This document shows, piece by piece, positions 3,628 to 20,630 of a stretch of 64,000 bases of DNA. The position numbers were made by a program, and so were the translations under genes. The stretch comes from Actinocrinis puniceicyclus. Its GTDB lineage: Bacteria; Actinomycetota; Actinomycetes; Streptomycetales; Catenulisporaceae. The stretch is taken from positions 1-64,000 of the forward strand of contig NZ_JAGSXH010000005.1 of the NCBI RefSeq assembly GCF_018283645.1. Reading direction: 5' to 3'. Every line of letters starts with the position of its first letter. Positions within the stretch are counted from its first letter, which is position 1. The notes under the pieces were generated by a model. It was not told the DNA's origin. It did not search any database and saw only the letters and a program-made list of their open reading frames with translations.

Positions 3628-4167
3628 TCAGCTCAGGAAATGCTCGCTGAACAGCGACCAGCCCTCGGGCCAGTTCCCGAGCCCCGAGCCGGCGTTGAGG
3701 TGTCCCTTGCGGCCGACGTTCACCAGTGCGGCGCCGAACAACTCCGCGTTGGCCGCCGCGCTTTCCATGGAGCAGTAGGGATCGTCCTCGCTTGCGACCA
3801 CCAGGCAGGGGAAGGGCAGCCGGCCGTGGCGGGCCGGGTCGAAGCCCACGGCCGCACTCGGGAACGCGGGACCGCGCGCGTCCGGCACCGCTACCAGGAA
3901 GGCGCCGACGATCCCGGCGTCCTGATGCTGCGCGGCCCATTCGGCCACGAGGGTGCAGCCGAGACTGTGCGCCACCAGGATCTTGGGGCCCTCGATCTTG
4001 CGCAGGGCGTCGTCGAACTCCTCGACCCAGGTATCGCGCACCGGCGCGTCCCAGGAAGCGTGCTCGACCCACACCGAGTCGGCCACCCGGCCGCGCCAGT
4101 GCGACTGCCAGTGCTCGGGCCCGGAGTTGTCGATGCCCGCGAGGAAGACGTACGTCAGGGACTGCAT
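3628..4167 (-). CDS. RBBP9/YdeN-family alpha/beta hydrolase, last gene of the biosynthetic operon
   Basis: This 179-aa protein matches the RBBP9/YdeN serine hydrolase family in length and motifs: an N-terminal VFLAGIDNSGPEHWQ, the nucleophile elbow AHSLGC (serine near residue 68), the acid loop SEDDPY and the C-terminal GHLN histidine. The Ser-Asp-His triad therefore appears complete. Start ATG 4167 follows the halogenase stop by two bases (TGATCATG), so the gene is cotranscribed and probably coupled. In a carrier-protein pathway it could be an editing or off-loading hydrolase, or could trim a protecting group. This role is inferred from context only. Confidence 0.85.
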   Translation of the reverse strand: MQSLTYVFLAGIDNSGPEHWQSHWRGRVADSVWVEHASWDAPVRDTWVEEFDDALRKIEGPKILVAHSLGCTLVAEWAAQHQDAGIVGAFLVAVPDARGPAFPSAAVGFDPARHGRLPFPCLVVASEDDPYCSMESAAANAELFGAALVNVGRKGHLNAGSGLGNWPEGWSLFSEHFLS

Positions 4168-4169
4168 GA

Positions 4170-5885
4170 TCAGACCTCGTATTCCGTGCCCACACCGTCG
4201 AAGCGCAGGCGGTCCTGGATGAACACGCGCCGGTCGTCCTTGTCGTAGCCGGTGAGCAAGCCGGCCTCCATCAGCCGGATGACGATCTGCGAACTCGACT
4301 CCTGCATTCCGGCGTCGTTGAGCTGCTTGATCAGGTTCTTGTAACCCACGTTCTCCTTGGCGACGAGCTGGAAGATCTCCCGGTGCCGCTCCTCCAGCGG
4401 GTACTTGATCATATCGAGGCCGTCCTCGTTGGCCAGCACCTTCTTGCTCTCCAGGCGGAAGGAGAGCGGGTCGACCTTGAAGTACGGCTTGAGCAGGACC
4501 TCCTCGCCGGTCCAGGCCAGGCGCGTGATGCGGTTGAGCCGCTTGGTCAGATCGCCGATCCAGCGCACCCGCGCGCCGTTCAGTTCCTGGTCGGCGAACT
4601 CGTCGGTCAACTCCTTGCGCTGGTGGCGTCCGATGGCGATCATCGTGGCCGCGCGGTCGTGGAAGCCGGCCACCGAGGCGTCGGGATGCCGCGCGTCGCC
4701 CGCGACAAGCCGGTCGAACCACTTCTTCCGGTTGAGCCGCTCGTCGTCGGACTCGCTGATCCTGCGCTTGAGCCAGAACTCGGACTCGGGCTCGGTGAAG
4801 GAGGCGAAGGTGTAGAAGGACGCGAGGAACTCGTGGTACTGCTCGTAGGTCTCGCGGTAGCTGCGGTTGTACCACGCGTGGACCGCGTCGAGTTCGTCCT
4901 CGGCGTGCGTGATCCGGTCGATCGCCGACGCCGCGCACACGGCGGATTGGGTGGCCAGGTGGACGCCCTGCGAGAAGAGCGGGTCGGTGAAGCAGGCGGC
5001 GTCGCCGACCAGGAAGTAGCGGCCGGCGGAGAAGTGCTCCGAGTCGTACGACCAGTCGTGGACGATGCGCACCTCGTCGATCATCTCCGCGGCGCCGAGG
5101 ATGGCGGCGGCGCGGGGCGCCTTGGCGAGGGTCTCGCGGTAGAAGCGCTCCGGGCCGAGTTCCTTGACCTCTGCCGACTTGGAGCGGTCGACCACCAGGC
5201 CGACGCTGTAGACGTCGCCCTTCTGCGGGATCATCCACACCCAGCCGTCCTCGAAGGTGATCGAGTACGTCGTGCCCCTCAGGTCGCCCTCGAAGGGATC
5301 GCGGCACTTGAAATACGACCAGACGGCGAAGTTGCGGTAGAACTCGTCATAGCGGCGGACCTTGAGCTGCCTGGCCAGCGGGCTGCCCGAGCCACCGGCG
5401 TCGATGACGAAATCGGCCACGACGCTTCGGGTGGCCTCGTCCTGGCGGAGCGTCAGCGCCACCCGGTCGGCGGCGCTGATGTCCACGTCCGTGACGGCGG
5501 CGCCTTCGTGCACGACGATCCCGCGTTCCCTGACCTCGTCGACGAGGAGCTGGTCGAACTCCTCGCGCTTGACCTGGATCGCGTGGTCGAAGACCCAGGG
5601 CGCGCTCTTCGGCGTGGCGAAGGAGAAGGTCCAGGGCGCCTGGTCCTGACCCCAGAGGAAGGTCGCGGAGGGCTTCGGCACGAACCCCGCGGCGTCGATC
5701 CGCTCCTGGAGGCCGAGGCGGTGCAGGATCGAGAGCGTTCCCGGCAGGAAAGACTCGCCGACGCGGTAGCGCGGGAACCGGCCCTTCTCGAAGACCTCGA
5801 CGTCATGGCCCAGCTTCTGCAGGGTCAGGGCGGCCACGCAGCCACCCGGGCCGGCGCCGATGACGGCGACCTTCGCTCGTTTCAT
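4170..5885 (-). CDS. FAD-dependent halogenase-like monooxygenase
   Basis: The 571-aa protein has an N-terminal FAD-binding motif GAGPGG (residues 10-15), FPRYRVGES (38-45), a lysine in GFVPKPSATFLWG (K71, the probable equivalent of the catalytic lysine of flavin halogenases), the halogenase motif GWVWMIP (214-220) and the second FAD motif VGDAACFTDP near residue 295. This combination matches the FADH2-dependent halogenases that act on carrier-protein-bound substrates (CndH-like) more than free-tryptophan halogenases. The long C-terminal extension (about 400-571) looks helical, with a winged-helix-like end. Start ATG 5885 follows GAAGGA; a GTG three bases earlier is possible. A dedicated flavin reductase is not present in the window. 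Hydroxylation or dehydrogenation instead of halogenation cannot be excluded. Confidence 0.8.
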   Translation of the reverse strand: MKRAKVAVIGAGPGGCVAALTLQKLGHDVEVFEKGRFPRYRVGESFLPGTLSILHRLGLQERIDAAGFVPKPSATFLWGQDQAPWTFSFATPKSAPWVFDHAIQVKREEFDQLLVDEVRERGIVVHEGAAVTDVDISAADRVALTLRQDEATRSVVADFVIDAGGSGSPLARQLKVRRYDEFYRNFAVWSYFKCRDPFEGDLRGTTYSITFEDGWVWMIPQKGDVYSVGLVVDRSKSAEVKELGPERFYRETLAKAPRAAAILGAAEMIDEVRIVHDWSYDSEHFSAGRYFLVGDAACFTDPLFSQGVHLATQSAVCAASAIDRITHAEDELDAVHAWYNRSYRETYEQYHEFLASFYTFASFTEPESEFWLKRRISESDDERLNRKKWFDRLVAGDARHPDASVAGFHDRAATMIAIGRHQRKELTDEFADQELNGARVRWIGDLTKRLNRITRLAWTGEEVLLKPYFKVDPLSFRLESKKVLANEDGLDMIKYPLEERHREIFQLVAKENVGYKNLIKQLNDAGMQESSSQIVIRLMEAGLLTGYDKDDRRVFIQDRLRFDGVGTEYEV

Positions 5886-5937
5886 CACTGGTGTCCTTCT
5901 CTTCGGTGTTCGTGCCCTTGTACTCCCGGCCCGGCGT

Positions 5938-6585
5938 TCATCGGGAGGCGGGAGAGATGGGCAGTGCCTTGATGCGGTTCGGGAGCAGGTAGGTGTGGCC
6001 GCTCGGAGCGTCCTCGAACACGGTGATGCCGGCCTGGAACCTGCTTGAGCTGCCGATCACGACCTCGGGGACGAGCGTGCAGCCCAATCCGAAGAAGTTG
6101 TCGTCGCCCACTGCGACGCTGTTGCCGCAGTGGAAGTTCGGCGAGAGGAAGTTGTTGGAGCCGAGGTGCGAGTGGTTGCCCACGGTGCAGTGGTAGTTGA
6201 TCACGTTGAACCCGCCGAGGCTCACGTTGACGCCCAGGTAGCAGTGCGGGCCGATGACGTTGCCGGGCCCGGTCAGCTGCGCCGGGTCGACCCGGGAGCT
6301 GGGGTGGACGACGTTCTCGGCGAGCAGGCCGCGCCCCACTATGTGGCGGTCGATGATCTCGCGCCGCGTCGCCGGGTCCGCGACGGCGAGCACCACGGGC
6401 GTGCCGGCCGGCAGGTCGCAGGTGTCCAATTCGGCGCACCGGCCGGCGGGGACCTGCACCTGCTCGCCGGGCACGCTCAGGTACCGCTCGACGCGAAGGC
6501 CGCCCCTCGCGGCGAACGCGTCCTCGACGTACCGGGTGATTTCGAGGGCGAATTTACCGGCTCCGATCAGCGTCAGTCCCGTCAC
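5938..6585 (-). CDS. NeuD/PglD-like sugar O- or N-acyltransferase
   Basis: The 215-aa protein combines an N-terminal Rossmann-like segment (LTLIGAGKFALEITRYV) with a left-handed beta-helix of hexapeptide repeats (about residues 95-190; GPGNVIGPHCYLG, GNHSHLGSNN, VAVGDDNFFG), the architecture of NeuD/PglD acyltransferases. Histidine in VINYHCTVG is in the position expected for the catalytic base. The GTG start at 6585 overlaps the stop of the upstream ligase gene (GTGA), and 52 bases separate it from the halogenase. Its presence in a carrier-protein operon suggests acylation of an amino or hydroxyl group on the product or on a sugar-like unit. Donor and acceptor are not predictable. Confidence 0.82.
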   Translation of the reverse strand: MTGLTLIGAGKFALEITRYVEDAFAARGGLRVERYLSVPGEQVQVPAGRCAELDTCDLPAGTPVVLAVADPATRREIIDRHIVGRGLLAENVVHPSSRVDPAQLTGPGNVIGPHCYLGVNVSLGGFNVINYHCTVGNHSHLGSNNFLSPNFHCGNSVAVGDDNFFGLGCTLVPEVVIGSSSRFQAGITVFEDAPSGHTYLLPNRIKALPISPASR

Positions 6586-7973
6586 GGCACGATCCGCTTC
6601 TTCTTGAACCGCTCCGAGACGGTGACGGCGTCGACCAGGTTGACCTTCGTGGGGATCTTGAACGCCTCCAGCTTTCCGGTGAGGAATTCGACCACGTGCT
6701 TGCGCATCTGCGCGCGGGTCGGCTCGCCGCGAGGGATGATGTCCGCGCACACCGACTGTCCCGTGATGGCGTTGGGCGTGCCGTACACCACGCAGTCGGC
6801 GATCAGCGGGCTGGAGAGCAGGACCGACTCCAACTCCAGCGGCAGCACCTTCTGCCCGCCCACGTTGATGACCTCCTTCGCGCGGCCCTTGATCCTCAGG
6901 TAGCCGCCCTCGTTCAGCTCGACGAGGTCGCCGGTGCGGAACCAGCCGTCCTCGGTCAGGCTGTCGCCCGGATGGTTGAGGTAGCCGAGGAACTGCGTGG
7001 AACTCTTGAGCTGGAGTTCGCCGTCGACGATCCGGTGCTGGACGCTCGTGTCCTCGATCCGGAAGTACGTGCTGCGGGACGACTCGCTGGTGGTGGTCGA
7101 GATCCCGGTCTCGCTGGTGCCGAAGGTCTGCAGCAGCCTGGCGCGCGGGAAGGCGGCGCCCACCCGCTTGAGCAGTTCCTCGGGCATCGGCTCCGTGCCG
7201 TAGCTGATCAGGCGCAGGCTGCTCAGATCGTGCTTCTCGTGGAAGCCGCCGATCAGGATGAGGTTGAGGAAGGTCGGGCTGGTGGGCAGCAGCCGGATGC
7301 GGTGCTCCTCGATCAGGGCGCAGATCTCCTCCGGGGTGCGGCGGCGCGGCACGACCACCGTGCCGCCGACGCGCACCGCGCCGAGCAGTGAGTTGATGCC
7401 GCCGATGTGGTCGAAGAGCAGGAACATCAGGATGCTGGAAGGCCTTCCGCCGCCGCGCGCCCGCCTGCCGAGCTTCTCCTCGACCAACGCGTCGAGGTCG
7501 TGCAGGATCGCCTTGGGCACCCCGGTACTGCCGCTGCTGAGCAGTACCAGCCCGGAGGCGCCGCGGTCGGCGAGGCGGGAGTAACGCTCGCCACGGTCCG
7601 CTGCGGCGCCGGGCACGGCCTCGATCGTCACATCGGGTGCCTCGTCCGCGGGCTCCGTGTCGTGCGACACCCTCAGGATGTGGCGTGGATCGCAGGACTC
7701 GATGACCGTGGTGAGGGTCGTCCCGGTGAGGGAGACGACGGGGATGACGACGTTCCGGTTGAGGTGCAGCGCGAACAGCGCGGCGATCGACGCGAAGGAG
7801 AAGTCGCCGTTGAGGACCACGGCGTCGTGCGGTCGCACGCCGTGCGAGTCCAACTCCTTGAGTAGTCGCCGTATCCGGTCGGCGAGTTCGGCGTAGCCGT
7901 GCCTCGCCTCGCCGTGGACGACCGCCACCCGGTCGCCGAGTTCGTCGAAGCTGTCGAGCAGTTCGCTGCCCAT
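6582..7973 (-). CDS. Acyl/aminoacyl adenylate-forming ligase (AMP-binding)
   Basis: The 463-aa stand-alone ANL enzyme keeps the core motifs: A3 LLSSGSTGVPK (about residue 160), A5 QTFGTSETG, A7 FRTGDLVEL, A8 YLRIKGRAKEVINVGGQK and an A10-like end SERFKKKRIVP with the catalytic lysine. It lacks a fused carrier domain, so it probably loads the separate carrier protein encoded two genes upstream, or makes a CoA ester. The short N-terminal subdomain is typical of fatty-acyl or aryl ligases rather than full NRPS modules. The start ATG 7973 overlaps the preceding stop by one base (TGATG), and the end overlaps the NeuD-like gene by four bases. The substrate code could not be read with confidence. 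Confidence 0.88.
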   Translation of the reverse strand: MGSELLDSFDELGDRVAVVHGEARHGYAELADRIRRLLKELDSHGVRPHDAVVLNGDFSFASIAALFALHLNRNVVIPVVSLTGTTLTTVIESCDPRHILRVSHDTEPADEAPDVTIEAVPGAAADRGERYSRLADRGASGLVLLSSGSTGVPKAILHDLDALVEEKLGRRARGGGRPSSILMFLLFDHIGGINSLLGAVRVGGTVVVPRRRTPEEICALIEEHRIRLLPTSPTFLNLILIGGFHEKHDLSSLRLISYGTEPMPEELLKRVGAAFPRARLLQTFGTSETGISTTTSESSRSTYFRIEDTSVQHRIVDGELQLKSSTQFLGYLNHPGDSLTEDGWFRTGDLVELNEGGYLRIKGRAKEVINVGGQKVLPLELESVLLSSPLIADCVVYGTPNAITGQSVCADIIPRGEPTRAQMRKHVVEFLTGKLEAFKIPTKVNLVDAVTVSERFKKKRIVP

Positions 7974-8671
7974 CAGTGGACCCCTCCGAGGAAGAGCGTC
8001 TCTCCGGTGATGAACCCTGATTCCCGCGAGATGAGGAAATCGACGGGGCCGACGATGTCCTCGACCGTGCACATGCGCTTGAACGCCTGCCGCTGGATCA
8101 GCACGTCGATCTTCTCGGCCGGCACGGACCGGGTCAGGACCGTGTGTACCGGCGGCAGGCCGATGCCGTTGACCCGGATCGGGAACTGCGCCAGTTCCTT
8201 GCTCATCACGCGGGTCAGCTGCTCGACCGCGGCCTTGCTGGCCGAGTAGAGCAGCTGTCCCTCCAGCGCCCACGGCACGGCGACCGTGCTGACGTTGAGG
8301 ATCGCCGGGGCCGGCTCCTCGCTCTTGCGCAGCAGTTTGACCGTCTCCCGGCAGCAGTCGAGAACCGCGAAGAAGTTCACCTCGAACATGCGGCGCGAGG
8401 TCTCGGCCGGTGTCGTCATGAAGTGGTTCATGCTCGCCGTGCCGGCGTTGTTGATCACCGCGTCGAGGCGTCCGTGGTCGGCTCGGATCGCCCGGCACAT
8501 GGACTTGATCGCCTTGACGTCGGTGACGTCGGCCGCGTGGTGCACGTACTGCGGGTGCTCGATGGTCGCCGGCCTCCTGCTGCACCCCACCACCTGATGG
8601 CCGCGGCCGAGCAGGTACTCGGCCAGGGCCCTGCCGATACCGGTCCGGGTGCCGGTGATCAGGACGATCAT
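7973..8671 (-). CDS. SDR-family oxidoreductase (classical)
   Basis: The 232-aa classical SDR has TGTRTGIG (residues 6-13) for NAD(P) binding, the INNAGTAS motif, a catalytic serine in ILNVSTVA and the YSASK active site near residue 145, and ends with the family-typical ITGETLFLGG. The start ATG 8671 overlaps the carrier-protein stop (ATGA) and the end overlaps the ligase start. It probably reduces a beta-keto or oxidises a beta-hydroxy group on a carrier-bound or precursor substrate. It could also be involved in forming the unusual amino acid monomer. Confidence 0.88.
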   Translation of the reverse strand: MIVLITGTRTGIGRALAEYLLGRGHQVVGCSRRPATIEHPQYVHHAADVTDVKAIKSMCRAIRADHGRLDAVINNAGTASMNHFMTTPAETSRRMFEVNFFAVLDCCRETVKLLRKSEEPAPAILNVSTVAVPWALEGQLLYSASKAAVEQLTRVMSKELAQFPIRVNGIGLPPVHTVLTRSVPAEKIDVLIQRQAFKRMCTVEDIVGPVDFLISRESGFITGETLFLGGVH

Positions 8672-9042
8672 TCCCCGGGTCCGCCCGCAAGGCCCTGCGC
8701 CGGGATCGCGTTCCCCGCTTCAGTGCCCTGCTCGTCGGGTTCCCCGTCCCGGGCGAGCGCGATCTCCTCCTCGATGAAATCGATCAGCCTGCGGCCGCTG
8801 CTGAACGGGCTCACCCTGCGCGAGACGGCCTTCTCGGAGGTCAGCGAGATTTCGACGTCGAATTCGTCCTCCAACGCCTCCTCGACCAGGACGAGGAAGT
8901 TCACCAGGTGCATCGAGTCGAAGACCCCTGCCTCGCCGTACAGGCCGACTTCCAGCAGGTTCTCCGTGGGGATCTTCTCGTCCCGCCGTTCGTTGAGCTC
9001 GTCCACGACGTTCACGAGCAGGGCGAGGAGCTGGTCCCGCAT
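8668..9042 (-). CDS. Acyl/peptidyl carrier protein
   Basis: The 124-aa acidic helical protein contains the phosphopantetheine attachment motif GVFDSMHLV with Ser43, and the surrounding LLEVGLYGE and LVEEALEDEFDVEI segments fit helices II and III of carrier proteins. The C-terminal 35 residues (after FIEEEIALA) form a Gly/Glu-rich tail not needed for the fold. Start ATG 9042 has GAAAGG upstream. It is the only carrier protein in the operon, placed next to the SDR and AMP ligase, so it probably tethers the substrate for these and for the halogenase. No phosphopantetheinyl transferase gene is visible nearby. Confidence 0.85.
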   Translation of the reverse strand: MRDQLLALLVNVVDELNERRDEKIPTENLLEVGLYGEAGVFDSMHLVNFLVLVEEALEDEFDVEISLTSEKAVSRRVSPFSSGRRLIDFIEEEIALARDGEPDEQGTEAGNAIPAQGLAGGPGE

Positions 9043-9112: not shown

Positions 9113-10402
9113 TCAATGCGAGCCGGCCGCGGCGGCCTGCTCGGACTCGGACTCCCGCGGCGCTCCCGGCGGTGGCTCGAGCCGGCCGAGCCGGGCGCCG
9201 AGCACCGTGACGGCGAGCGCAGTGCACACGAACACCGCGGCGAGCGCGATCAGCCCGGTGGTGCGCCGGCTCAGCAGGAGCGCCAGCAGCACGGGGCCGA
9301 CGATGCCGGCGGCCGAGGTGCTGAGGTTGAACACGGACAGGTACTCGGTGCGCCGCGCCTCGGGCGCGTGGCGGAACGACAGTTCCCACCCGCCGGCCCC
9401 CTGGAGCAGCTCGCCGAAGGTGAGCACCGCGGTCGCGGCTATCAGCAGGATGATGGTCAGCCAGCGAGAGGAGTGCGTCGTGGCGATCAGCAGCAGGCTG
9501 AACGCGGCCAGGGCGAGTCCCGACCTGCGCAGGGCGCGGATGCCGTCCCGGGTGCTGTTGACGTTCTTGGCGACGTGCACCTGGAAGACGATCGCCAGCA
9601 CGGTGTTGACCACGAACAGCGCGCTCAACAGGCCGACGGGTGCGTTGGTGGACTGCACGATCCACAGCGGCAGCCCGATGCCCAGCAGCACCGTGTGCAG
9701 GAACAGCGCGCCGTTCACGAGCGTCAGGCCCAGATACGGGCGGTCGCGGGCGACGGTGAGCAGCCCGCCGAAGCGGCGGGTCTGCGTCGGCCCGGCGGTG
9801 ATGACACCCACCTTGAGCAGGCCGAACACCGCCGAGGAGGCCAGGCAGCACCCGGCGCCGACCAGGAGGACCGCCCGGAGCATGCCGGTGCCGCCCACGG
9901 CGAGGAACGGCGCGGCCGCGAGTATGCCCAAGGACATGCCGACGTTGATCACCGAACTGATCAGGCCGAGCGTGCGGGTGCGGTCGGCCTCGCCCACGAC
10001 GGCGTTCACCAGCAGCTGCACCATCGGGAAGATCGGTCCCTGCGAGATCGTGAACAGCGAGGCGAACAGGGTGAAGGCGACCATGCCGTGCGCGAAGGCC
10101 AGCGACGCGAACCACAGCGCCCTCCACACCTGGAGCAGCCGCAGCAAGCGCCGCGGTCCCCAGCGGGTGGCCAGCATGCTCACCGGCACCGTGGTCACGA
10201 ACCCGACCAGGCTGGCGATCGTCAGTCCGGCGCCGACCTGCGCGGCGCTCAGGCCGATGCCCTTGACGAAGTAGACGGTGCCGCCGGCCAGGTAAAGCCC
10301 GCTGCTCGACGCATAGACCACGACCCCGGCGGCGATGATCCGGCCGCCCTTGCTCGGCAGCGCGTAGTTGCCCAGCAGGCGCCGCATGACCTCGCCTCTC
10401 AT
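9113..10402 (-). CDS. MFS transporter, probable product exporter
   Basis: The 429-aa membrane protein has about 12 hydrophobic segments. The loop between segments 2 and 3 carries the MFS pattern as TRWGPRRLLRL, and the C-terminus is a short cytosolic tail (PPPGAPRESESEQ). Start ATG 10402 overlaps the ATP-grasp stop (ATGA); a second ATG at 10387 is possible. A 70-base gap separates its end from the carrier-protein gene, the largest internal gap in this half of the operon. By position it should export the product and confer self-resistance, as many DHA-type MFS pumps do in biosynthetic clusters. Direction of transport is inferred. Confidence 0.85.
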   Translation of the reverse strand: MRGEVMRRLLGNYALPSKGGRIIAAGVVVYASSSGLYLAGGTVYFVKGIGLSAAQVGAGLTIASLVGFVTTVPVSMLATRWGPRRLLRLLQVWRALWFASLAFAHGMVAFTLFASLFTISQGPIFPMVQLLVNAVVGEADRTRTLGLISSVINVGMSLGILAAAPFLAVGGTGMLRAVLLVGAGCCLASSAVFGLLKVGVITAGPTQTRRFGGLLTVARDRPYLGLTLVNGALFLHTVLLGIGLPLWIVQSTNAPVGLLSALFVVNTVLAIVFQVHVAKNVNSTRDGIRALRRSGLALAAFSLLLIATTHSSRWLTIILLIAATAVLTFGELLQGAGGWELSFRHAPEARRTEYLSVFNLSTSAAGIVGPVLLALLLSRRTTGLIALAAVFVCTALAVTVLGARLGRLEPPPGAPRESESEQAAAAGSH

Positions 10403-12870
10403 GCCGTCCCTCCGTCGTGGCCCGCCGGCTCGAGTTCCACCGCGACCAGCGCCGCCGCCCGGTCCAGCACGACCTGGCACTCCTCTGGCGTCTCTCCGGT
10501 GACCAGCAGCGCGGCCAGCCGCGGCACGACGCCGCGCGGCGGCAGCAGCAGCCGCGCGCCCGGCTGGGCCAGCCGCACCACCTCGGCCACCCCGGGCACG
10601 GCCGCGGCGGCAGCCGTGTCCAGGGAACGGACCACGCAGTCGCGGTCCGGGTAGAGGAAACGCACCTCGGCGCAGACGTCGCGCTGCTGGCGCAGGTCGG
10701 GCTCCCGGCCCAGGGCGAGGTCCACCGCGGCGGCGGTCAGATCGATCCCGGTGGCCAGCGACCCCAGGTGCGGGATGAAGTCGCCGCCGAGGCGGCCGTT
10801 GAGTTCCACGAGCCGGGGGCCGGCCGCGGTGAGCCGCACCTCGGCGTGGGTGACGCCCATGGTGACGCCGAGCGCGCGGTGCGCCTCGACGACGAGGTGG
10901 GTGAGTTCGTCCGCCCACGGTTCGTGCCGCCACCGCGAGACCAGGTGGCCGATCTCCTCGAAGAAGGGCTCGAAGCCGAGCCGTTTGCGGGCCACGTTCA
11001 CGGGCTGAACCTCGCGGTCGCGCACGACGCTGTCGACGCTGACCTCGGGGCCGTCGAGGAACTCTTCCAGCACCAGACCGTCCAGCGGCTCGATGCCGGG
11101 GAACACCGCTTCGGCGGCGTAGTGGTACAGCGCGCGCAACTCGTCCGGTCCGTGCATGACGACCACGCCCGCGCTGCCCGCCAGTGAGCGGGGCTTGACC
11201 ACGACGGGGTAGCCGATGCTCTCGGCCGCGCGCAACGCCTCCTGCTGCCCGTGCACGTGCGCGAACTTCACGCCCGCGACGCCGGCCGCGGCCAGCAGCC
11301 GCCGGGTGGAGAGCTTGTCGCGGCAGTTGCGCGCCGCGAGCAGGGACATGTGCGGCAGGCCCAGACGCGAGGCGGCTTCGGCGGTCGCCTCCAGCAGAAC
11401 CTCGTCCCACGTCAGGAGACCGACGCGGCCGGGGTGCGCGGCGCAGGCCCGCGCGGCCGCGGCGGCGGTCGCGTCCGGGGTGTCCTGCGGCATCCGGTGG
11501 CAGCCGGCCAGGTAAGGCTGCTGCCAGCTCGGTTCGGCGGTGGTGACCAGTGCCACGTCGGCGCGGGCGGCGGCCGCGGCGAAAGCGTACTCGCGGTAGG
11601 GCCGCCCGCCGCTGCCGACGAGGACCACGAGGCCGCGCGCCGACTCGTCGATGCTCGTACACCGATATTCGAACGCTGTCGCGGTGCGCTCCACGGCGGC
11701 CTGGACCTCGGCCGTGCTCGCGCCCCGGAAACGGAACCGCGCGCCCGCATGCTCGTAACCGGGCAGGTCGTCGAGGGTCTGGCCGACCAGGGGCACCCGC
11801 TCGGCGTAAGGGCCGCCGTCGGTTCCCACCTGCGGGTCCGCCGCCGTGACCCGGCAGGGCCGGGCCGCCGGGGTGGGCACCAGCAGCCAGCCGCCGCGCT
11901 CCACGGACGGCGGTTCGCCGGCTGCCCGGGCGGCCGCCGGCAGCGGCGCGCCGATCTGGAGGGCGAAGGCCGCCTCCATCAGGTCGATTCCGTGCACCTC
12001 GCGCCACACGAAGGGGACCTCCGCGCCGCCCGGGCGTGCGCCCACCTCCAGGACCTGAAGTTCGGGGGCCGAGTCCGGGCCGGATCGGAAGAGTTCGAGG
12101 TGGAACACGCGCGGCCCGTCCGAAACGGCGCGCAGGACTTCAGCGGTGAACGCGCCGACGGCCTTGAGGAGCCGGGGATCGTCCAGTTCCACCGAGCCGA
12201 GCGGCGCGCCCGCGGTGAAACCGAGGCAGGTGTTGAGATAGCGGGAGGCGCGCCACGCCCCCAGCCCCGTGCCGTGGTACACGCCGTCGACGTGCAGCAC
12301 CTCGTGCGGGAGATACGGCTGGACCAGCATCGCCAGGTCGGGCGGGAAGCTGTACGCGGCGAGATCGGCTTCGGAATCCAGGCGCGCGACGCCCGCGCTC
12401 GCGGTGCCTCGCAGCGGCTTGACCAGGACCGGCCACCCGTGGGCGGCGGCGAAGGCGCGTACCGCCTCGTGATCCGGCGCGGGCCCGGTCGCCGGGACGG
12501 GAACACCCGCGGCGGCCAGGCGCCGGGCCATGACGAGCTTGTCGCGGAACGGGGCGAGCCCGGCCAACCGCTCGCCCGGGACGCCGAGTTCCTCGCGCAG
12601 TTCCGCGGCCATGTCCAGGTCGACCTCGTGCAGCGCGACGACGCGGGCGGGCCGGCCGCGCTCCTCGATCAGGGAGCTGACGGCGGCCCGGACCTCCTTG
12701 CCGTCCTCGGTGCTGTGCACGGTCCGCACCGCCGCGGGCGCCTCGGGCAGCGAGCCCGCGGCGCGGCGTGTCGTCACATAGCTGACCCGATGGGCGCCGT
12801 GGTCCACGTAGGAGCCGTAGTTCGCGTACCGGTCGGCCCATCGGTGCAGGACGATGAGGTGTTCTGGCAC
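10399..12870 (-). CDS. Tandem double ATP-grasp ligase (fused peptide/amide ligase)
   Basis: The 823-aa protein is two ATP-grasp ligases fused head to tail. Module 1 (about residues 1-400) has K151 in VLVKPLRGTASAGV, the hinge MLVQPYLPHE and the metal-binding end LEVGARPGG (274-282), in which Gly replaces the usual Asn. Module 2 (about 410-823) has K559 in VVVKPRSLAGSAGV, the hinge LVLEEFLDGPEVSVD and the canonical ELNGRLGGDF (689-698). Each module would activate a carboxylate as acyl phosphate and join it to an amine, as in L-amino-acid ligases and carnosine-synthase-like enzymes. GTG 12870 is preceded by GGGAGGGGAA. Two ligation steps by one polypeptide, or one active plus one degenerate module, are both possible. 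Confidence 0.85.
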   Translation of the reverse strand: MPEHLIVLHRWADRYANYGSYVDHGAHRVSYVTTRRAAGSLPEAPAAVRTVHSTEDGKEVRAAVSSLIEERGRPARVVALHEVDLDMAAELREELGVPGERLAGLAPFRDKLVMARRLAAAGVPVPATGPAPDHEAVRAFAAAHGWPVLVKPLRGTASAGVARLDSEADLAAYSFPPDLAMLVQPYLPHEVLHVDGVYHGTGLGAWRASRYLNTCLGFTAGAPLGSVELDDPRLLKAVGAFTAEVLRAVSDGPRVFHLELFRSGPDSAPELQVLEVGARPGGAEVPFVWREVHGIDLMEAAFALQIGAPLPAAARAAGEPPSVERGGWLLVPTPAARPCRVTAADPQVGTDGGPYAERVPLVGQTLDDLPGYEHAGARFRFRGASTAEVQAAVERTATAFEYRCTSIDESARGLVVLVGSGGRPYREYAFAAAAARADVALVTTAEPSWQQPYLAGCHRMPQDTPDATAAAAARACAAHPGRVGLLTWDEVLLEATAEAASRLGLPHMSLLAARNCRDKLSTRRLLAAAGVAGVKFAHVHGQQEALRAAESIGYPVVVKPRSLAGSAGVVVMHGPDELRALYHYAAEAVFPGIEPLDGLVLEEFLDGPEVSVDSVVRDREVQPVNVARKRLGFEPFFEEIGHLVSRWRHEPWADELTHLVVEAHRALGVTMGVTHAEVRLTAAGPRLVELNGRLGGDFIPHLGSLATGIDLTAAAVDLALGREPDLRQQRDVCAEVRFLYPDRDCVVRSLDTAAAAAVPGVAEVVRLAQPGARLLLPPRGVVPRLAALLVTGETPEECQVVLDRAAALVAVELEPAGHDGGTA

Positions 12871-12969: not shown

Positions 12970-14244
12970 CTACGACTCCTCGGCCGGTTCGGCGTCGGCG
13001 TCGGCCAGAACCAGGACGTCCTCAAGAGCGCGCAGCAGCCCGATGACCCCGTCGAAGCCGGTGGAAGTGGAGTTCTCCCGCAGAGTGCAGGTGAGCGTGT
13101 CGCCGTCCTGCGCCTGGAGGTAGAGGGGCGCTCCGATGTTGCGCCCCGCGGTGCCCGACTCCATTTCCCGCCGCGGGATCGTCTGATCCTTCTGATATTC
13201 GCCGAGGTAGTTGAAGAAGTAGCGGAAGAAGCCGCTGACCGATCCTTCGAAGGAGCCGTTCACGGTGCCGTGGTAGCCGTGCAGGGCGCCCTCCTCGAAC
13301 ACGTCGTCCACGTTGTAGGCGGCGTGCTTGTACGAGCGCAGGCTCTCCCAGTGGACCCGCGTCGCGAACGCGCCGAACTCCTCGTCCGGATCGACGGCCA
13401 CGAGCAGCGGGATGATCTGGGTCTGGGCCGCGACCAGTCTCTCCCAGCGCGGGTCGCTGCGGTTGTTGGCGTACACGGCGACGAGCAGCTTCCGCTCGCC
13501 GCTCTGCCGCGCCAGCGCCATGCAGTAAGCCGCGACCAGTACGGACGGGACCGACACGTTCAGCCGCTTCGCGAGCCGGTGCGCGGCCGCGGCCGCCTCC
13601 TGGGAACTGTGCCGGGCCCAGCGGCTGGTGACAGGGCTGGGCCCGGTGTCCCGCGCCATCGGCGGAGCGGCCAGGAAGATCTCCCGCCAGTACCTGCGCG
13701 CCGACGCGCGGCGATTCTTGCGGGCGTCGGACCACTGCTCGACGGCCAGTTCCCGGCAGTTCGGCGCATCCTCGGGCAGTGGCCGGCCGGCCAGCAGCGC
13801 CAGGAACTCCTCGTGCAGCTGGTTGATCGCCCATGCGTCCACTGCGATGTGGTGGTAGCAGATCACGAGTTGCGACGGGACCTGCCGCGCGGTGACCAGT
13901 CGCGCGCGCCACGGCCGGTCCGCGGACAGATCGAACGGCTCGGCGGCCAGTTCCTCCGCCACCTGCGCGGCATCCGCCTCGACCGTCTCCAGGCTCACCG
14001 CGGCGGGATCCTGGACCACCTGCGTCAGCCCGTGCTCACCGCGCTCCTCGTAGCAGGTGCGCAGCGACTCGTGGCGGCGTTCGAGGTCTTCCAGCGCGTG
14101 TTCGATCTCTTCTTTGGCGGCGTCGCGCGGCAGGGCCCATATCTGCGGTAGATTGCAGGCCGCTGGTGGAAGTTTCGCGATGGAACGCCACAGGGACAGT
14201 TGGCCGAAGGTCGCACGTTCGCGGCTCACAACACGTTCTTGCAT
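12970..14244 (-). CDS. Stand-alone NRPS condensation-domain protein, first gene of the operon
   Basis: The 424-aa protein is a free-standing condensation domain: FGQLSLWRS near the N-terminus (C1), the catalytic YHHIAVDAW at 130-138 (HHxxxD complete; His132, Asp136), and the latch region NVDDVFEEG. Such enzymes join a carrier-bound acyl donor to an amine or alcohol acceptor. With one carrier protein and an ATP-grasp ligase in the same operon, it probably performs one amide or ester bond formation. ATG 14244 has GAGGCGAG just upstream and is the first gene of the 10.6-kb transcript. A 99-base gap precedes the ATP-grasp gene and holds no other recognisable gene. Confidence 0.87.
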   Translation of the reverse strand: MQERVVSRERATFGQLSLWRSIAKLPPAACNLPQIWALPRDAAKEEIEHALEDLERRHESLRTCYEERGEHGLTQVVQDPAAVSLETVEADAAQVAEELAAEPFDLSADRPWRARLVTARQVPSQLVICYHHIAVDAWAINQLHEEFLALLAGRPLPEDAPNCRELAVEQWSDARKNRRASARRYWREIFLAAPPMARDTGPSPVTSRWARHSSQEAAAAAHRLAKRLNVSVPSVLVAAYCMALARQSGERKLLVAVYANNRSDPRWERLVAAQTQIIPLLVAVDPDEEFGAFATRVHWESLRSYKHAAYNVDDVFEEGALHGYHGTVNGSFEGSVSGFFRYFFNYLGEYQKDQTIPRREMESGTAGRNIGAPLYLQAQDGDTLTCTLRENSTSTGFDGVIGLLRALEDVLVLADADAEPAEES

Positions 14245-15003: not shown

Positions 15004-16413
15004 TCAGAAGTGCGCCGCGGTGTCGAAATCCGAATTCGACCTCTCGGCCGCCGTGACCCGCGCCGGGCCGGCCGTCCCGGGGGCGTCGGATACCGGGAGC
15101 CCGACCGGGGCTGCGGCGGCTTGCGCGAGATCGGCGAGAAGGTCGGCGAGGACGAGTTCTTCTTCCACCCGCCGGCCCTCGCGGATCATCGTGGCGGGTA
15201 GATCCGTATCCCATGCCGCGGTGGGCACCGCCGACGGCGGAGGCAACGCGCCGGTGCCCGGGTGTTCCTTGAGCGCCGCCCGGTATGCGTCGGTGTCGAA
15301 ACGCCACGGCAGCCACCCGATCCGGGCGCGCAGTCCCGCGGCGATGCGCAGGCCGCCCCAGTCGAAATCCCCGTGGTAGAGGAGCGTGGCGCCGCCCTGC
15401 GCGAGGAGGCTGAGCAGTTTGACGGCGGCGGCGCTCGGCTGCCCGCCGACACAGACCAGCGGCGGGCAGCGGGCGGCGAACCGGTCGGCTGCGGCCGCGA
15501 CCACGGACGGGTTCTCGCACACGAAGACCCGCGTGCCGGGCGGCAGCGGCCTGGGCGCGTCGCGGGCGAGCTGACGCAGGGTGAGCACGGCGGGCTGCCC
15601 GGCCGGGTGCAGTGCGGCCAGCGCTCGGCCGGTCGCGGTCGCGCTGTCGCCCGGCAGGCCGAGGGTGAGCACCTGGCTGGACAGCTCGTCCTTGAGCAGG
15701 CCGACCGCGGCCCAGGTCTCCCGCCGCCACTGCGCGCCGTTTCCGTGCGCGCCCCCGGTCAGCGCGCGGGCGGCGCTGAGCGAGAGCGTACTGAGCGGTC
15801 TGTCGTCGTCCAGGGCGTGCGCGTCCGCGAGGACGCGAGCGGCGAAGGCGGCGAGCGACTCGTCCTCGGCCGGCAGCGCCGACACGACTTGCGCCAGGTC
15901 GGCCAGCATCGCCGCGGCTGTCGTGGGGCTCCCCGAGGACAGGCGCGTGACCAGTCCCTGCGCCCGAAGTGCGGTGAACCACGCCTCCAGCTGCGGTCGG
16001 GCGCGTACGGCGGCCGCGAGCGGCGCGAAGGCGTCCTGCCAGGCGCGCTCGCGGGCGGCTTCCGTCTCATGGCGCGGGGTCACCGGGCCGGTGAGCTCGA
16101 CGACGGCGGCGGCCAGGCCCTCGGGGCAGGCGCCGCTCTCGCGCAGGATCCGGTCGACCGCGGGCAACGGGACGTGGATGGATCGGGCCGGTCGCAGCGC
16201 ACGGCCCAAGAGTCGTGCGGCGGCGGCTCGTTCGGACTCGCTGGGAGTGCTGTTCGTCACCGGGCCGTCGAGATCCCGGCCGAGTTCCATCCGGCGTCGT
16301 GCCCTGTCGACCAGCCATGCCAGGTCCGGGCCGCCGAGGAGTCGCAGGAGGTGGGCGCGGCGCTCGGCGGCCGGGGTCGAGTGCGGCGGCGGGCCGCCGT
16401 CGGGCCGGGTCAT
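15004..16413 (-). CDS. jetD: Wadjet JetD, type III (TIGR02679/DUF2399 toprim nuclease)
   Basis: The 469-aa protein carries the C-terminal DUF2399 toprim-like domain with the expected acidic residues: the glutamate of FVCENPSVV near residue 298 and the DxD of YHGDFDWGGL near 347. JetD is the topoisomerase-VI-like nuclease subunit that cleaves plasmid DNA after SMC-like loop extrusion by JetABC. The N-terminal part (about 1-280) is the family's arm domain. Start ATG 16413 overlaps the jetC stop (ATGA). It is the last gene of the four-gene operon. The only visible oddity is the long Pro/Ala-rich stretch near residues 390-430. Confidence 0.9.
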   Translation of the reverse strand: MTRPDGGPPPHSTPAAERRAHLLRLLGGPDLAWLVDRARRRMELGRDLDGPVTNSTPSESERAAAARLLGRALRPARSIHVPLPAVDRILRESGACPEGLAAAVVELTGPVTPRHETEAARERAWQDAFAPLAAAVRARPQLEAWFTALRAQGLVTRLSSGSPTTAAAMLADLAQVVSALPAEDESLAAFAARVLADAHALDDDRPLSTLSLSAARALTGGAHGNGAQWRRETWAAVGLLKDELSSQVLTLGLPGDSATATGRALAALHPAGQPAVLTLRQLARDAPRPLPPGTRVFVCENPSVVAAAADRFAARCPPLVCVGGQPSAAAVKLLSLLAQGGATLLYHGDFDWGGLRIAAGLRARIGWLPWRFDTDAYRAALKEHPGTGALPPPSAVPTAAWDTDLPATMIREGRRVEEELVLADLLADLAQAAAAPVGLPVSDAPGTAGPARVTAAERSNSDFDTAAHF

Positions 16414-19400
16414 CGCAGGAGCGGTTCGACGCCGGCCGGCGTCGCGTCGGCGGCCTGAGTGTCCGGGGCGGCGGATCGGGCGGGCAGCAGGGCGCCGGGA
16501 TCCGCTCCGGGACGCCGTTCCCTCCCGTTCCACTCCCACCGGGTGACCAGCACCGCGGCGACCTCGTCCACCCGGGACAGCTGGGCGATCGCGAGCCCGG
16601 GCACCTGCGGGTAGCAGCCCCACTCGCGTTCCGAAGTCATCACCACATCCAGGTCGAAGGCGGCCAGCAGCCCGAGGGACTTGGCCCGCGAGTCGTCGTC
16701 GACCCCTGCGAATGCCTCGTCGAGGGTGACCAGGCGCGGGCAGTGCGGGTTGCCTGCGGACGCGTAGTGCGACGAGGCGGCGGCGAACAACGGGATGCTG
16801 ACGGCCAGCACCCGCTCGCCGCCCGAGGCGGGACCCGTGGCGGACTGCCAGCGGCCGTGCTGGTGGCGTTCGATGGCGAACTCGTGCCAGGAGCGGTAGT
16901 CCAGGGCGCGGCCCAGGTGTTCCGCCCAGGTTCCGGTCGGGTCCTCGGCGCGGGCACGCTCGATCTGCCCTTGCAGGAACTCGCCGACGGCGGCGCGGTC
17001 GGCGGCGGACCAGGCGTCGGCGCTCTGGCGCAGCAGGCGCTGTCGCGCGGCGGCCAGCCCGGCGGGGGCGTCTTTCGCCGGACGCCACAGCAGCCGCAGC
17101 CGCATGCCCGTACTGGTGGGCCGCGACTCCAGCTCGGTGTTCATGGCCAGGACACGACGGTCTGCGGCGGCGATCAACTCGGCCAGGGTGCCGGCCACCT
17201 CGGTGATCAGGTGGTTCTCCAGGATCTCCTGTTCGCGCTCGGACAGCAGGCGGCGGCGGTCCGCGATGTCGGTCTCCAGCGCGTCGGCGAGCTGCGGGAC
17301 CGACTGGGGCCGGCCCTGGAAGACCACGGAGACGACGATGCCGTCCTCGTGCATCTCGGCGCCCGCGCTGTGCCCGTGGCGGGCGAGCGCCTCGGCGAGG
17401 TCCTTGAGTTCTTCGGTCGTCCGTTTCTGCACGCGGTCCCACGCGGCGTCCGAGTCGTCGGTGTCGGCCAGTTCCCGCTCGATCGTGCGGGCCAGGCGGA
17501 TCGCCGGGTCGGGCGCCCAGGGTTGCGCGGGGTCCGGGGTCTCCAGATCCGGAAGGGCGATCGCGAGCAGCCCGGTCACGGTGAAGCGGCGCAGCGCCTC
17601 GGTGGCCTCGCGCCGCTCCCGCACGGTTTCTTCGAGGTCTGCTTCGAGCTGGCGGTGCCGCCCGGCCGCCTCGCCGCGGGCCTCGCGCGCGGCGTCCAGC
17701 GCCCGGCGGGCCTCGACCTCCCGGTCGCGGCGGGCGCGCTGGGCGGCGGCGACCTCGCCGAGCCGCTGCTGCAGTTCGCTGACGGCGGCGCCGACGGTCG
17801 CGGCGAGGGTCTCGTGCCGCGCGTTTGCGGCTTCGCCGTCGGCGGCGGCCTGTTCGGCGCGCTCGCCCATCTGCGCGACGTACTCGGCGGCGCGCTCGCA
17901 GCCGGCGCGCTCCTCGGCGAGGGTCCGCCGCGCGGTTCGCAGCTCCCTGATCGCCGGCCACAGCGCGGCCAGGGCCTCGCGGTAGGCGCCGAGGGCGTCG
18001 CGGATCGGGCGCTGTGCCTCCGGTTCGGCCGGCAGGTCCAACTCGTCGGCGCCGCGGCGCACCTCGGCCTGGGCGACGTCGGCGTCGGCCTGTTCGCGGG
18101 CGCACGCGGCGGCGAGGGCCCCGCGGCGTTCGGCCAGGCGCTGCTGTTCCTCGGCCGCCGCGGCAAGGCGGGCGTGGGCACGGCGCAGGTCGTCTTCGGT
18201 GGGGTATGCGGCCACCTGGGCGGCCAGGCGGGCGCGGCGGGCCGCGAGGTCCTGTTCGCGTTCGGCCAGGGCGGCGAGTTCGTGCCCGATACCGGTGAGG
18301 ATCTCGCCGAGCCTGCCGATGCGGCGGCGACGGGCCTGCTCGCGGGCGCCCTCACCGATGAACTGCGCGGCCGGCTTGGCCCACGCGCCCCGCGCCGGAC
18401 CGTTGCGGAACCGGCCGTCGGTCGAGATCCAGGTCGCGCAGGTCGGATCGGTGCTCGATTCGGGCTCTGCGACACCGGGTCGCAGCAGCGCGATACCGGC
18501 GAGCAGTCGCGCTACGGTCCGCTCGGGGACGGCTGCGGCGCGCGGATCCCCATGGTCGGGGGCGGGCCGCATGAGGTCCGCGAGGGACGGGCCTTCGACG
18601 GGCGGGCCGGGCACGAGCAGCACGTCGTGCGTTTCCGCCCCCAGCGCGGTGCCCTCGGGGGTGATCCAGGCGTCGAGCAGTCCGGCGGCTTCGAGGGCCG
18701 CCTCGATGCCGGCGCGCTGCTCGGCCGTGGCGCTCTCGGCGAAGTCGGCCAGTCGCCACAGCGGGGCGCCGGACAGGCCCCCTCGCGCCGCCTCGTCGCG
18801 GGTGGGCGGCGCGGCCGGCGGCCGTTGCCCGCCGGCCTCCAGCTCGGCCAGTTCGCGCCGGACCTCGTCCTGGCGGGCGCGCGCCTCGGCGAGCGCGGAG
18901 TCGAGGGCGGCCCGCTCGGCGGCGTGCGCCGCGGTCGCCTCCCGCGCGGCGGCGTCGACGGCCGCGCGCGCGGGACTGGGGCCGGTCAGGGTGCCGATCC
19001 ACTCGGCGAGCGCGTCGAGCGCGCCCTGCGTGTCGAGGGGATGGAGTTCGGCGGCCTCGCCGAGGTAGGCGCGCACGCGGTCGGTGTGGCGCGATCCGGC
19101 CGTGGCGAGGTCCTCTTCCGCGTCGGCGCGTCGTTCCGCCTGCGCGGCGAGTTGCGCGTCGGCGTCTTCGAGCCGGCGCGCGGCGAGGTCCGCCTTGCCG
19201 GCGGCGGCCGCGGCCCGGTCGAGCAGCTCCTCGAGCAGTTCCAGGGACCGGGCGCGCCGGTCGGCCATCTCCTCGGCCGCGCGGCGCAGGTCCTCGGGCG
19301 CGACCGGCGGCTCGGCGGCGTCCCGATCGGCTCTCCAGGCGTCCAAGGGCGCTGCGACGCGGTCGGCGTGGCCCTGTTCGATCCGGGCGCGGACCGCGTT

Positions 19401-20630
19401 CTCTCGCGCGCAGGCGGCGGACCGGTCCAGCTGCGTCTCGGCGCCGCCGAGCCGGGCCGAGGCGGACTCGGCGCGGACCGCCGCGCGGTTGAGTTCTGAT
19501 TCGGCGCGTTGCAGGTCCGCGGCGGTGCGCCGCGCGGTCTCCTGGGCCGTGCGAGCGTTCTCCGCGGCGTCCGCGAGCGCCTGGGCGCTGCGCATCTCGG
19601 GACTCTCGCGCAGCGCGGCGTCCTGCGCGCGCAGCCGCGCCTCCTCCTGGCCGAGTTCCGCCAGCGACCGCTCCCCCGCCTCGATCTGCCGTCCGGCGGC
19701 GTCGCGGGCCTGTTCGGTGGCGGACAGCTCAGCGCGCTGCGACTCGTACTTCGAGTGCTGCTGGCGCGGCAGTCTGGCCTTGCGGCGCGCGGCGGCCCGC
19801 GCGTAGCGGCGGTAGTGGCCGAGGAAGTCCGCGGCGGCCCGGTGGGCCTCGGCCGTCGCCTGAAGGTTCTCCTTCTCCTCGTCCAGGCTGCGGAACGCCT
19901 CGGCCACGTCGGCGAGTACGGCCTGGTCCATCGGGGCGAGCGCCTCGGTCAGCGCCCGGGACAGGGCGCGTTCGTCAGGACGCTTCGACAACTGCGGCTG
20001 GCGCAGTTGCACCAGCAGGTCGACCAGGGCCGCGTATCGCTGGTCGCCGAGTCCGAACAGCGCCTGGTCGACGGCCCGGCGGTAGGCGCGCGCCGAGTCG
20101 TACACCATCCCGTGGCCGGAGACGGCGTCGGCCAGGCGCTCGCGGCCGATCGCCGACCGGGTGGGATCGAGCAGGTCGAGGCCGCCCTGCGCGGCGGGCG
20201 CCCCGATCCGTTGATCGGTGACGAAGAACCAGTGCCGTGCGATACCCCGCCCGGAGACCGCCTTCATCCCGCAGCCCAGGGTGGTGAAGTGCGCGGTCCC
20301 GTCCGCGCCGAGGCGGCCGAACTCGATCCAGGCGTAGCCGAGGCGCTCCGGATGCGGGTGGTCGCCGCCGAGCAGCAGGTTCCACTCCATCTTCTTCTTC
20401 GGGTCGCCGTCCGGCTCGACCCGGTGCGCGGACAGGTCCCCGTCGAGCAGGAACGGGAGCGTGAGCGCGAGGACCTTGGACTTGCCGGTGCCGTTGTTGC
20501 CGCGTAGCAGCAGCCGTCCGTCGTGGAACCAGAACTCTTCGACGTCGTAGTAGAACAGGTCCACCAGTCCGACGCGCAGCGGCTGCCAGCGCTCGCGGTG
20601 GGCGGAGGGGAGCGGTCGGTGCGAGGTCAT
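16410..20630 (-). CDS. jetC: Wadjet JetC, type III SMC-like ATPase (TIGR02680)
   Basis: The 1406-aa SMC/MukB-like ATPase has its Walker A GNNGTGKSK at residues 44-52, long Ala/Glu/Arg-rich coiled coils (about 270-530 and 770-1020), the ABC signature SGGERVLAV near 1270 and Walker B VTLDEAFAGVDDD near 1300. JetC is the motor that extrudes loops on small circular DNA so that JetD can cut it. Overlaps of four bases on both sides (ATGA with jetB, ATGA with jetD) show a single transcript. Length matches the family and no key motif is lost, so the system should be functional. Confidence 0.93.
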   Translation of the reverse strand: MTSHRPLPSAHRERWQPLRVGLVDLFYYDVEEFWFHDGRLLLRGNNGTGKSKVLALTLPFLLDGDLSAHRVEPDGDPKKKMEWNLLLGGDHPHPERLGYAWIEFGRLGADGTAHFTTLGCGMKAVSGRGIARHWFFVTDQRIGAPAAQGGLDLLDPTRSAIGRERLADAVSGHGMVYDSARAYRRAVDQALFGLGDQRYAALVDLLVQLRQPQLSKRPDERALSRALTEALAPMDQAVLADVAEAFRSLDEEKENLQATAEAHRAAADFLGHYRRYARAAARRKARLPRQQHSKYESQRAELSATEQARDAAGRQIEAGERSLAELGQEEARLRAQDAALRESPEMRSAQALADAAENARTAQETARRTAADLQRAESELNRAAVRAESASARLGGAETQLDRSAACARENAVRARIEQGHADRVAAPLDAWRADRDAAEPPVAPEDLRRAAEEMADRRARSLELLEELLDRAAAAAGKADLAARRLEDADAQLAAQAERRADAEEDLATAGSRHTDRVRAYLGEAAELHPLDTQGALDALAEWIGTLTGPSPARAAVDAAAREATAAHAAERAALDSALAEARARQDEVRRELAELEAGGQRPPAAPPTRDEAARGGLSGAPLWRLADFAESATAEQRAGIEAALEAAGLLDAWITPEGTALGAETHDVLLVPGPPVEGPSLADLMRPAPDHGDPRAAAVPERTVARLLAGIALLRPGVAEPESSTDPTCATWISTDGRFRNGPARGAWAKPAAQFIGEGAREQARRRRIGRLGEILTGIGHELAALAEREQDLAARRARLAAQVAAYPTEDDLRRAHARLAAAAEEQQRLAERRGALAAACAREQADADVAQAEVRRGADELDLPAEPEAQRPIRDALGAYREALAALWPAIRELRTARRTLAEERAGCERAAEYVAQMGERAEQAAADGEAANARHETLAATVGAAVSELQQRLGEVAAAQRARRDREVEARRALDAAREARGEAAGRHRQLEADLEETVRERREATEALRRFTVTGLLAIALPDLETPDPAQPWAPDPAIRLARTIERELADTDDSDAAWDRVQKRTTEELKDLAEALARHGHSAGAEMHEDGIVVSVVFQGRPQSVPQLADALETDIADRRRLLSEREQEILENHLITEVAGTLAELIAAADRRVLAMNTELESRPTSTGMRLRLLWRPAKDAPAGLAAARQRLLRQSADAWSAADRAAVGEFLQGQIERARAEDPTGTWAEHLGRALDYRSWHEFAIERHQHGRWQSATGPASGGERVLAVSIPLFAAASSHYASAGNPHCPRLVTLDEAFAGVDDDSRAKSLGLLAAFDLDVVMTSEREWGCYPQVPGLAIAQLSRVDEVAAVLVTRWEWNGRERRPGADPGALLPARSAAPDTQAADATPAGVEPLLR

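Follow-up and report, generated by a model that had tools for sequence, protein, structure and literature searches.

The window, a 64,000-nucleotide stretch of the Actinocrinis puniceicyclus genome, encodes on its minus strand an 823-aa protein in which two ATP-grasp modules are joined in one chain. This raises the questions of whether both modules are complete, how they came together, and what a single protein built in this way would make. The gene and its two parts are listed here, with the evidence for each in parentheses.

10399..12870, minus strand: predicted bimodular ATP-grasp amide ligase, 823 aa (ORF, 13 full-length fused homologues, AlphaFold model)
11641..12870, minus strand: module 1 (residues 1-410), RizA-like (profile search, module model, Foldseek, residue counts)
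10402..11640, minus strand: module 2 (residues 411-823), BL00235-like, with a C-terminal LAL_C2 domain (profile search, Pfam, residue counts)

The ligase ORF starts with GTG at position 12870 and ends with its stop codon at 10399, and the plus strand of the same interval is interrupted by a stop in the same frame. GC content at its third codon positions is 0.92, as in real genes here. Full-length homologues, with 44-60% identity, were found in 12 Streptomyces and one Nocardioides by a scan of 84,980 species genomes that detects close relatives only, so that the count of at least 13 fused forms is a lower bound. The third-position GC and the full-length homologues together indicate that the ORF did not arise by chance. 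When the closest relatives were checked, they proved to be fused proteins and not single-module homologues.

The initial annotation described two complete ATP-grasp modules, and this was borne out: the fold, the lysines, and the metal glutamates are present in both halves. An AlphaFold model of the whole chain (pLDDT 85.8, pTM 0.79) placed module 1 at residues 1 to ~408 and module 2 at ~413-823, with almost no linker between them (strands 402-406 and 414-418). The two modules share 30% identity over 250 aa by BLASTP (E 8e-9), and comparison of profile against profile aligned 335 columns with a probability of 99.95%. The best NCBIfam match of the protein was PRK02186, in the ATP-grasp region only. 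A PRK02186-type fusion to argininosuccinate lyase was rejected, given a score of 210.6 bits of the 625 needed, two ATP-grasp stretches, and no lyase domain.

The top whole-chain Foldseek match was 3vot, and carbamoyl-phosphate synthetase was the only solved family to align across both halves. The latter match could be taken to mean that the modules share one reaction with two phosphorylations, the intermediate being passed between sites as in that enzyme. We regard this as very improbable. The two-half alignment has an rmsd of 24 A, the carbamoyl-phosphate synthetase equivalog NF003671 scored 30.9 bits against a cutoff of 599, the glutaminase, linking, and other domains of that enzyme are absent, and the halves occur as separate genes elsewhere.

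Each module was compared with solved structures. A profile built from a 19-sequence alignment of module 1 retrieved RizA (4wd3) first, with an E value of 6.5e-40, followed by BL00235 and BacD, and the module 2 profile search retrieved BL00235 (3vot, E 6.4e-60). Modeled alone, module 1 reached a pLDDT of 91.9 and a pTM of 0.90, and Foldseek again placed RizA in the lead (TM 0.74/0.78). The top six Foldseek matches (4wd3, 3vmm, 3vot, 3wo1, 3wnz, and 3vot again) were all L-amino-acid ligases, in agreement with the ATP-grasp fold proposed for this module. By profile and fold, RizA is thus the nearest solved relative of module 1, and BL00235 that of module 2. Pfam searches scored ATP-grasp_4 and LAL_C2 above cutoff in module 2 (33.2 versus 29.4 for LAL_C2, PF18603); the second half alone was scored as ATP-grasp, and module 1 went unrecognised, with no LAL_C2 match.

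The catalytic residues are conserved in both halves. In module 1, these are K111, K151, D195, E259, E275, and R279, with the motif EVGARPGG at 275-282 and Gly277 at the position of the Asn. The module 2 residues are K519, K559, E602, E677, E689, N691, and R693, with ELNGRLGG at 689-696. The ATP-site lysines and metal glutamates (K111, K151, E259, and E275; K519, K559, E677, and E689) are near-invariant in their families; among 47 aligned module-1 sequences, K111, K151, and Glu259 are invariant and Glu275 is present in 46. EVGAR had been read as an altered, specialised metal site from which the Asn was lost. This interpretation fell when relatives were examined. The Asn position is Gly in 41 and Ala in six of the 47 module-1 sequences, and never Asn; the 80 aligned module-2 relatives have Asn (44), His (23), Gly (9), or Ala (4). 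The corresponding second metal motif likewise lacks Asn in the solved ligases BL00235 (EVGARIGG), BacD (ESAARFAG), and RizA (EIAMRIGG). EVGAR is therefore typical of ligases of this type. These same counts and structures rule out damage to the metal site of module 1.

The hinge residue in most ATP-grasp enzymes is Glu. At this position, module 1 has Gln184, and its family has Gln in 38 sequences and Glu in nine. This residue, which the initial annotation did not mention, is what truly sets module 1 apart. It is also one of the features that would fit a protein in which module 2 is the sole catalyst and module 1 only binds substrate or stabilises its partner, since module 1 has diverged further than module 2, escapes Pfam, and has neither the Glu hinge nor the Asn. 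We consider such a division of labor unlikely. The catalytic lysines and metal glutamates of module 1 hold in all 47 sequences apart from a single deviation at one Glu, free-standing single-module relatives of module 1 exist, and RizA, which lacks the Asn too, is a working ligase (PMC6920838).

The fused form was present in seven genomes besides A. puniceicyclus among 392 sampled genomes of the order (about 2%), and within a sample of 14 genomes of its own family, it was found in A. puniceicyclus alone. In one sampled genome, the fused gene was present near each chromosome end in copies of identical score (L113 and L114), as in terminal inverted repeats. The halves also occur as separate neighboring genes in Herbidospora, Nocardiopsis, many Streptomyces, a Paraburkholderia symbiosis plasmid, and Apilactobacillus plasmids. 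Contig C99 of the A. puniceicyclus genome has such a pair, with 53% and 33% identity to the modules and a 98-aa gene between them. Among 42 module-1 loci spanning 8 kb or more, 39 carried a second ATP-grasp gene no farther than 12 kb away; these loci do not represent 42 independent events, since several were drawn from genomes that overlap or are near relatives.

In a phylogenetic tree, all module-1 sequences were separated from all module-2 sequences with a support of 98. The fused proteins formed a single clade in the module-1 tree (support 99/96) and, less firmly, in the module-2 tree (91/87). Internal duplication was rejected because the relatives of the two modules fall in these separate clades and each module has single-gene relatives. 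The sequence comparisons indicate that the ligase joins two pre-existing enzyme families, probably once, and the simplest history would be one fusion of two neighboring genes.

Several loci showed other arrangements of the two families. In Streptomyces tateyamensis (L086, 11310-13931), module 2 is extended by an additional C-terminal domain of ~460 aa, with putative ATP-grasp-like motifs as judged by eye, beside a free module 1. On a Nocardia plasmid (L017, 9001-11534), a lysine 2,3-aminomutase gene adjoins a free module-1 relative, and no second ATP-grasp gene accompanies them; the plasmid table lists no gene for that stretch. The Paraburkholderia gene pair (L016, 11770-14309) lies beside nodB and nif genes and possibly serves to make a symbiosis-linked peptide. 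The split pair on contig C99 (L009, 4-9000) belongs to a second cluster of the A. puniceicyclus genome, which also encodes dioxygenase-like and SGNH-like hydrolase proteins and a NodU-type carbamoyltransferase.

The genomic setting of the ligase bears on its likely product. The gene is the second of nine in an operon on the minus strand, the other members of which are listed in order of transcription.

12970..14244, minus strand: standalone NRPS condensation (C) domain with an HHIAVDA motif, at the start of the operon (Pfam Condensation, E 7.4e-35)
9113..10402, minus strand: MFS exporter (Pfam MFS_1, E 1.2e-24)
8668..9042, minus strand: CmlM-like acyl carrier protein, ACP (DSM phosphopantetheine motif, cassette homologues, position matching cmlM; PMC4249514)
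7973..8671, minus strand: CmlJ-like short-chain dehydrogenase, SDR (Pfam adh_short, YxxxK motif, cassette conservation)
6582..7973, minus strand: CmlK-like AMP-forming acyl ligase (Pfam AMP-binding, E 2.2e-38; cassette conservation)
5938..6585, minus strand: NeuD/PglD-like hexapeptide protein (NCBIfam NeuD_NnaD, E 5.7e-24, below its cutoff)
4170..5888, minus strand: CmlS flavin-dependent halogenase (NCBIfam NF033113; Pfam CmlS_C, E 7.9e-60; WVWMIP motif)
3628..4167, minus strand: RBBP9-type serine hydrolase, the last gene of the operon (Pfam Ser_hydrolase, E 2.7e-52)

Five of the eight junctions are overlapping or no more than 2 bases wide; the ligase stop and the MFS start share 4 bases. The C-domain gene has an alternative GTG start at 14229. 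The halogenase exceeds the cutoff of the CmlS equivalog NF033113 (1071.5 versus 900 bits). A Pfam search of the ACP gave no match, and its homologues in other genomes, with 51-77% identity, lie within the same cassette. A complete Wadjet type II defence operon (JetD, JetC, JetB, and JetA; PADLOC scores up to 1501 bits) lies directly upstream of the biosynthetic operon at 15004-23493 on the minus strand. By sequence likeness, a Wadjet-like operon also adjoins a cml-type cassette in another genome (L133, 28-8169).

The neighborhoods of the other fused genes were compared with the window. A standalone C-domain gene adjoins every fused gene with enough flanking sequence, and the HHxxxD motif is present in every neighboring C domain for which the motif was extracted. 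Other partners of the fused ligases (a carbamoyltransferase, a lysine 2,3-aminomutase-like protein, acyl-CoA dehydrogenases, and NRPS) are unlike those in the window. Given these differences, gene context does not reveal a substrate common to the fused enzymes. One group of fused loci is a Streptomyces lydicus-type cluster (L061-L071, e.g., L069, 5185-22442), which further encodes a carbamoyltransferase, a lysine 2,3-aminomutase-like protein, an aminotransferase, carrier proteins, two acyl-CoA dehydrogenases, and a phosphopantetheinyl transferase.

The cassette has a distribution of its own. The order ACP, SDR, AMP ligase, and CmlS recurs without a fused ligase at seven loci of six other sampled genomes, and this cml-type chloroacyl cassette (3628-9042 in the window; L128-L134), often with a NeuD-like gene, was seen in differing clusters of the sampled Streptomycetales. 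At two of these loci, L132 and L134 (both from Streptomyces, and close relatives of each other), a single module-2-type ligase with 41% identity adjoins the cassette, so that ligase type and cassette are also associated beyond the A. puniceicyclus genome.

ATP-grasp enzymes form an acyl phosphate and then couple it to an amine. By extension from the family, each module would use ATP to phosphorylate a carboxylate, and an amine would attack the resulting acyl phosphate. One chain could form two amide bonds in this way and yield a short peptide or pseudopeptide. The CmlM/J/K/S-type cassette would supply a chlorinated, probably dichloroacetyl, acyl-ACP, from which the standalone C domain may move the chlorinated acyl group onto the amine end of the peptide, and the MFS protein would export the product. 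Of this scheme, the analysis shows the fold, the conserved catalytic residues, the recurrence of the fusion and its probable single origin, its pairing with the C domain, and the nature of the cassette, whereas activity of both modules, the substrates, the order of the steps, and the capping reaction are inferred. The two-step scheme of the initial annotation is retained insofar as there are two full modules in a setting that fits two amide-forming steps; its specialised metal site in module 1 is not.

The same setting could suggest that the ligase, through either module or both, charges a carrier protein with an amino acid rather than joining two free amino acids. In butirosin biosynthesis, BtrJ acts in this manner. 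ACP genes are found in the window and in S. lydicus-type clusters, and C domains normally take carrier-bound donors. We nevertheless judge carrier loading to be improbable, since both modules have dipeptide ligases as their nearest relatives of solved structure, the window ACP is of the CmlM type and has an AMP ligase of its own, and the examined stretches of C99-type loci with an ATP-grasp pair contain no ACP.

We favor, as fairly probable, a covalently joined pair of L-amino-acid-ligase-type enzymes whose short peptide product is capped by the C domain with a chlorinated acyl group. Points against it are the Gln in place of Glu at the module 1 hinge, the differing partner genes of the other fused enzymes, and a chloramphenicol cluster that does without an ATP-grasp ligase. 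The operon would most likely make the peptide part of a chlorinated small molecule by means of this ligase. More tentatively, the protein might be a carrier-free two-module amide synthetase that passes a dipeptide directly between its sites, with the C domain adding a dichloroacetyl cap to give an N-dichloroacetyl peptide; such a system could serve as a model for dichloroacetyl transfer in chloramphenicol biosynthesis.

Peptide-forming ATP-grasp ligases are wanted as simple catalysts, and in the pathways found in the literature each successive bond is made by its own ligase. A protein in which two different ligases are naturally fused, and which recurs in Streptomycetales, would be a ready framework for making two amide bonds in succession on one chain and would allow substrate hand-over to be tested. 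The C domain and the chloramphenicol-type chlorination cassette mark an operon that likely makes an undescribed chlorinated acyl peptide. The operon also offers a second system for studying dichloroacetyl transfer, a step in which the roles of cmlM, cmlJ, cmlK, and cmlS were termed obscure in 2014 (PMC4249514).

In the open-access literature, separate pairs of L-amino-acid ligases were described and no fused pair was, which is weak evidence of absence; a search there for fused or tandem ATP-grasp enzymes turned up only microviridin enzymes and archaeal pseudomurein. On the best reading, the protein is a fused bimodular amide ligase, unreported within that literature and built from known kinds of ligase. 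RizA (4wd3), BL00235 (3vot), and BacD (3vmm) have the fold and ATP site in common with it; they are single-module enzymes with 15-21% identity to it in structural alignments. The likeness to PRK02186, an ATP-grasp enzyme fused to argininosuccinate lyase, is confined to the ATP-grasp region. The large subunit of carbamoyl-phosphate synthetase also carries two ATP-grasp halves in one chain, but it differs in its linking and oligomerisation domains, its glutamine chemistry, and its one combined reaction.

Phosphonoalamide biosynthesis offers a functional parallel, in which successive action of the ATP-grasp ligases PnaC (dipeptide) and PnaB (tripeptide) is proven (PMC11867202). These are separate proteins with no C domain or halogenase described. 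The chloramphenicol cluster resembles the window in gene order, with cmlM, cmlJ, cmlK, and cmlS matching the ACP, SDR, AMP ligase, and CmlS genes (PMC4249514). It combines an NRPS protein with an arylamine pathway and lists neither an ATP-grasp ligase nor a standalone C domain; the cassette thus does not require an ATP-grasp ligase. Compared with the chloramphenicol cluster, the window adds the NeuD-like protein and the hydrolase.
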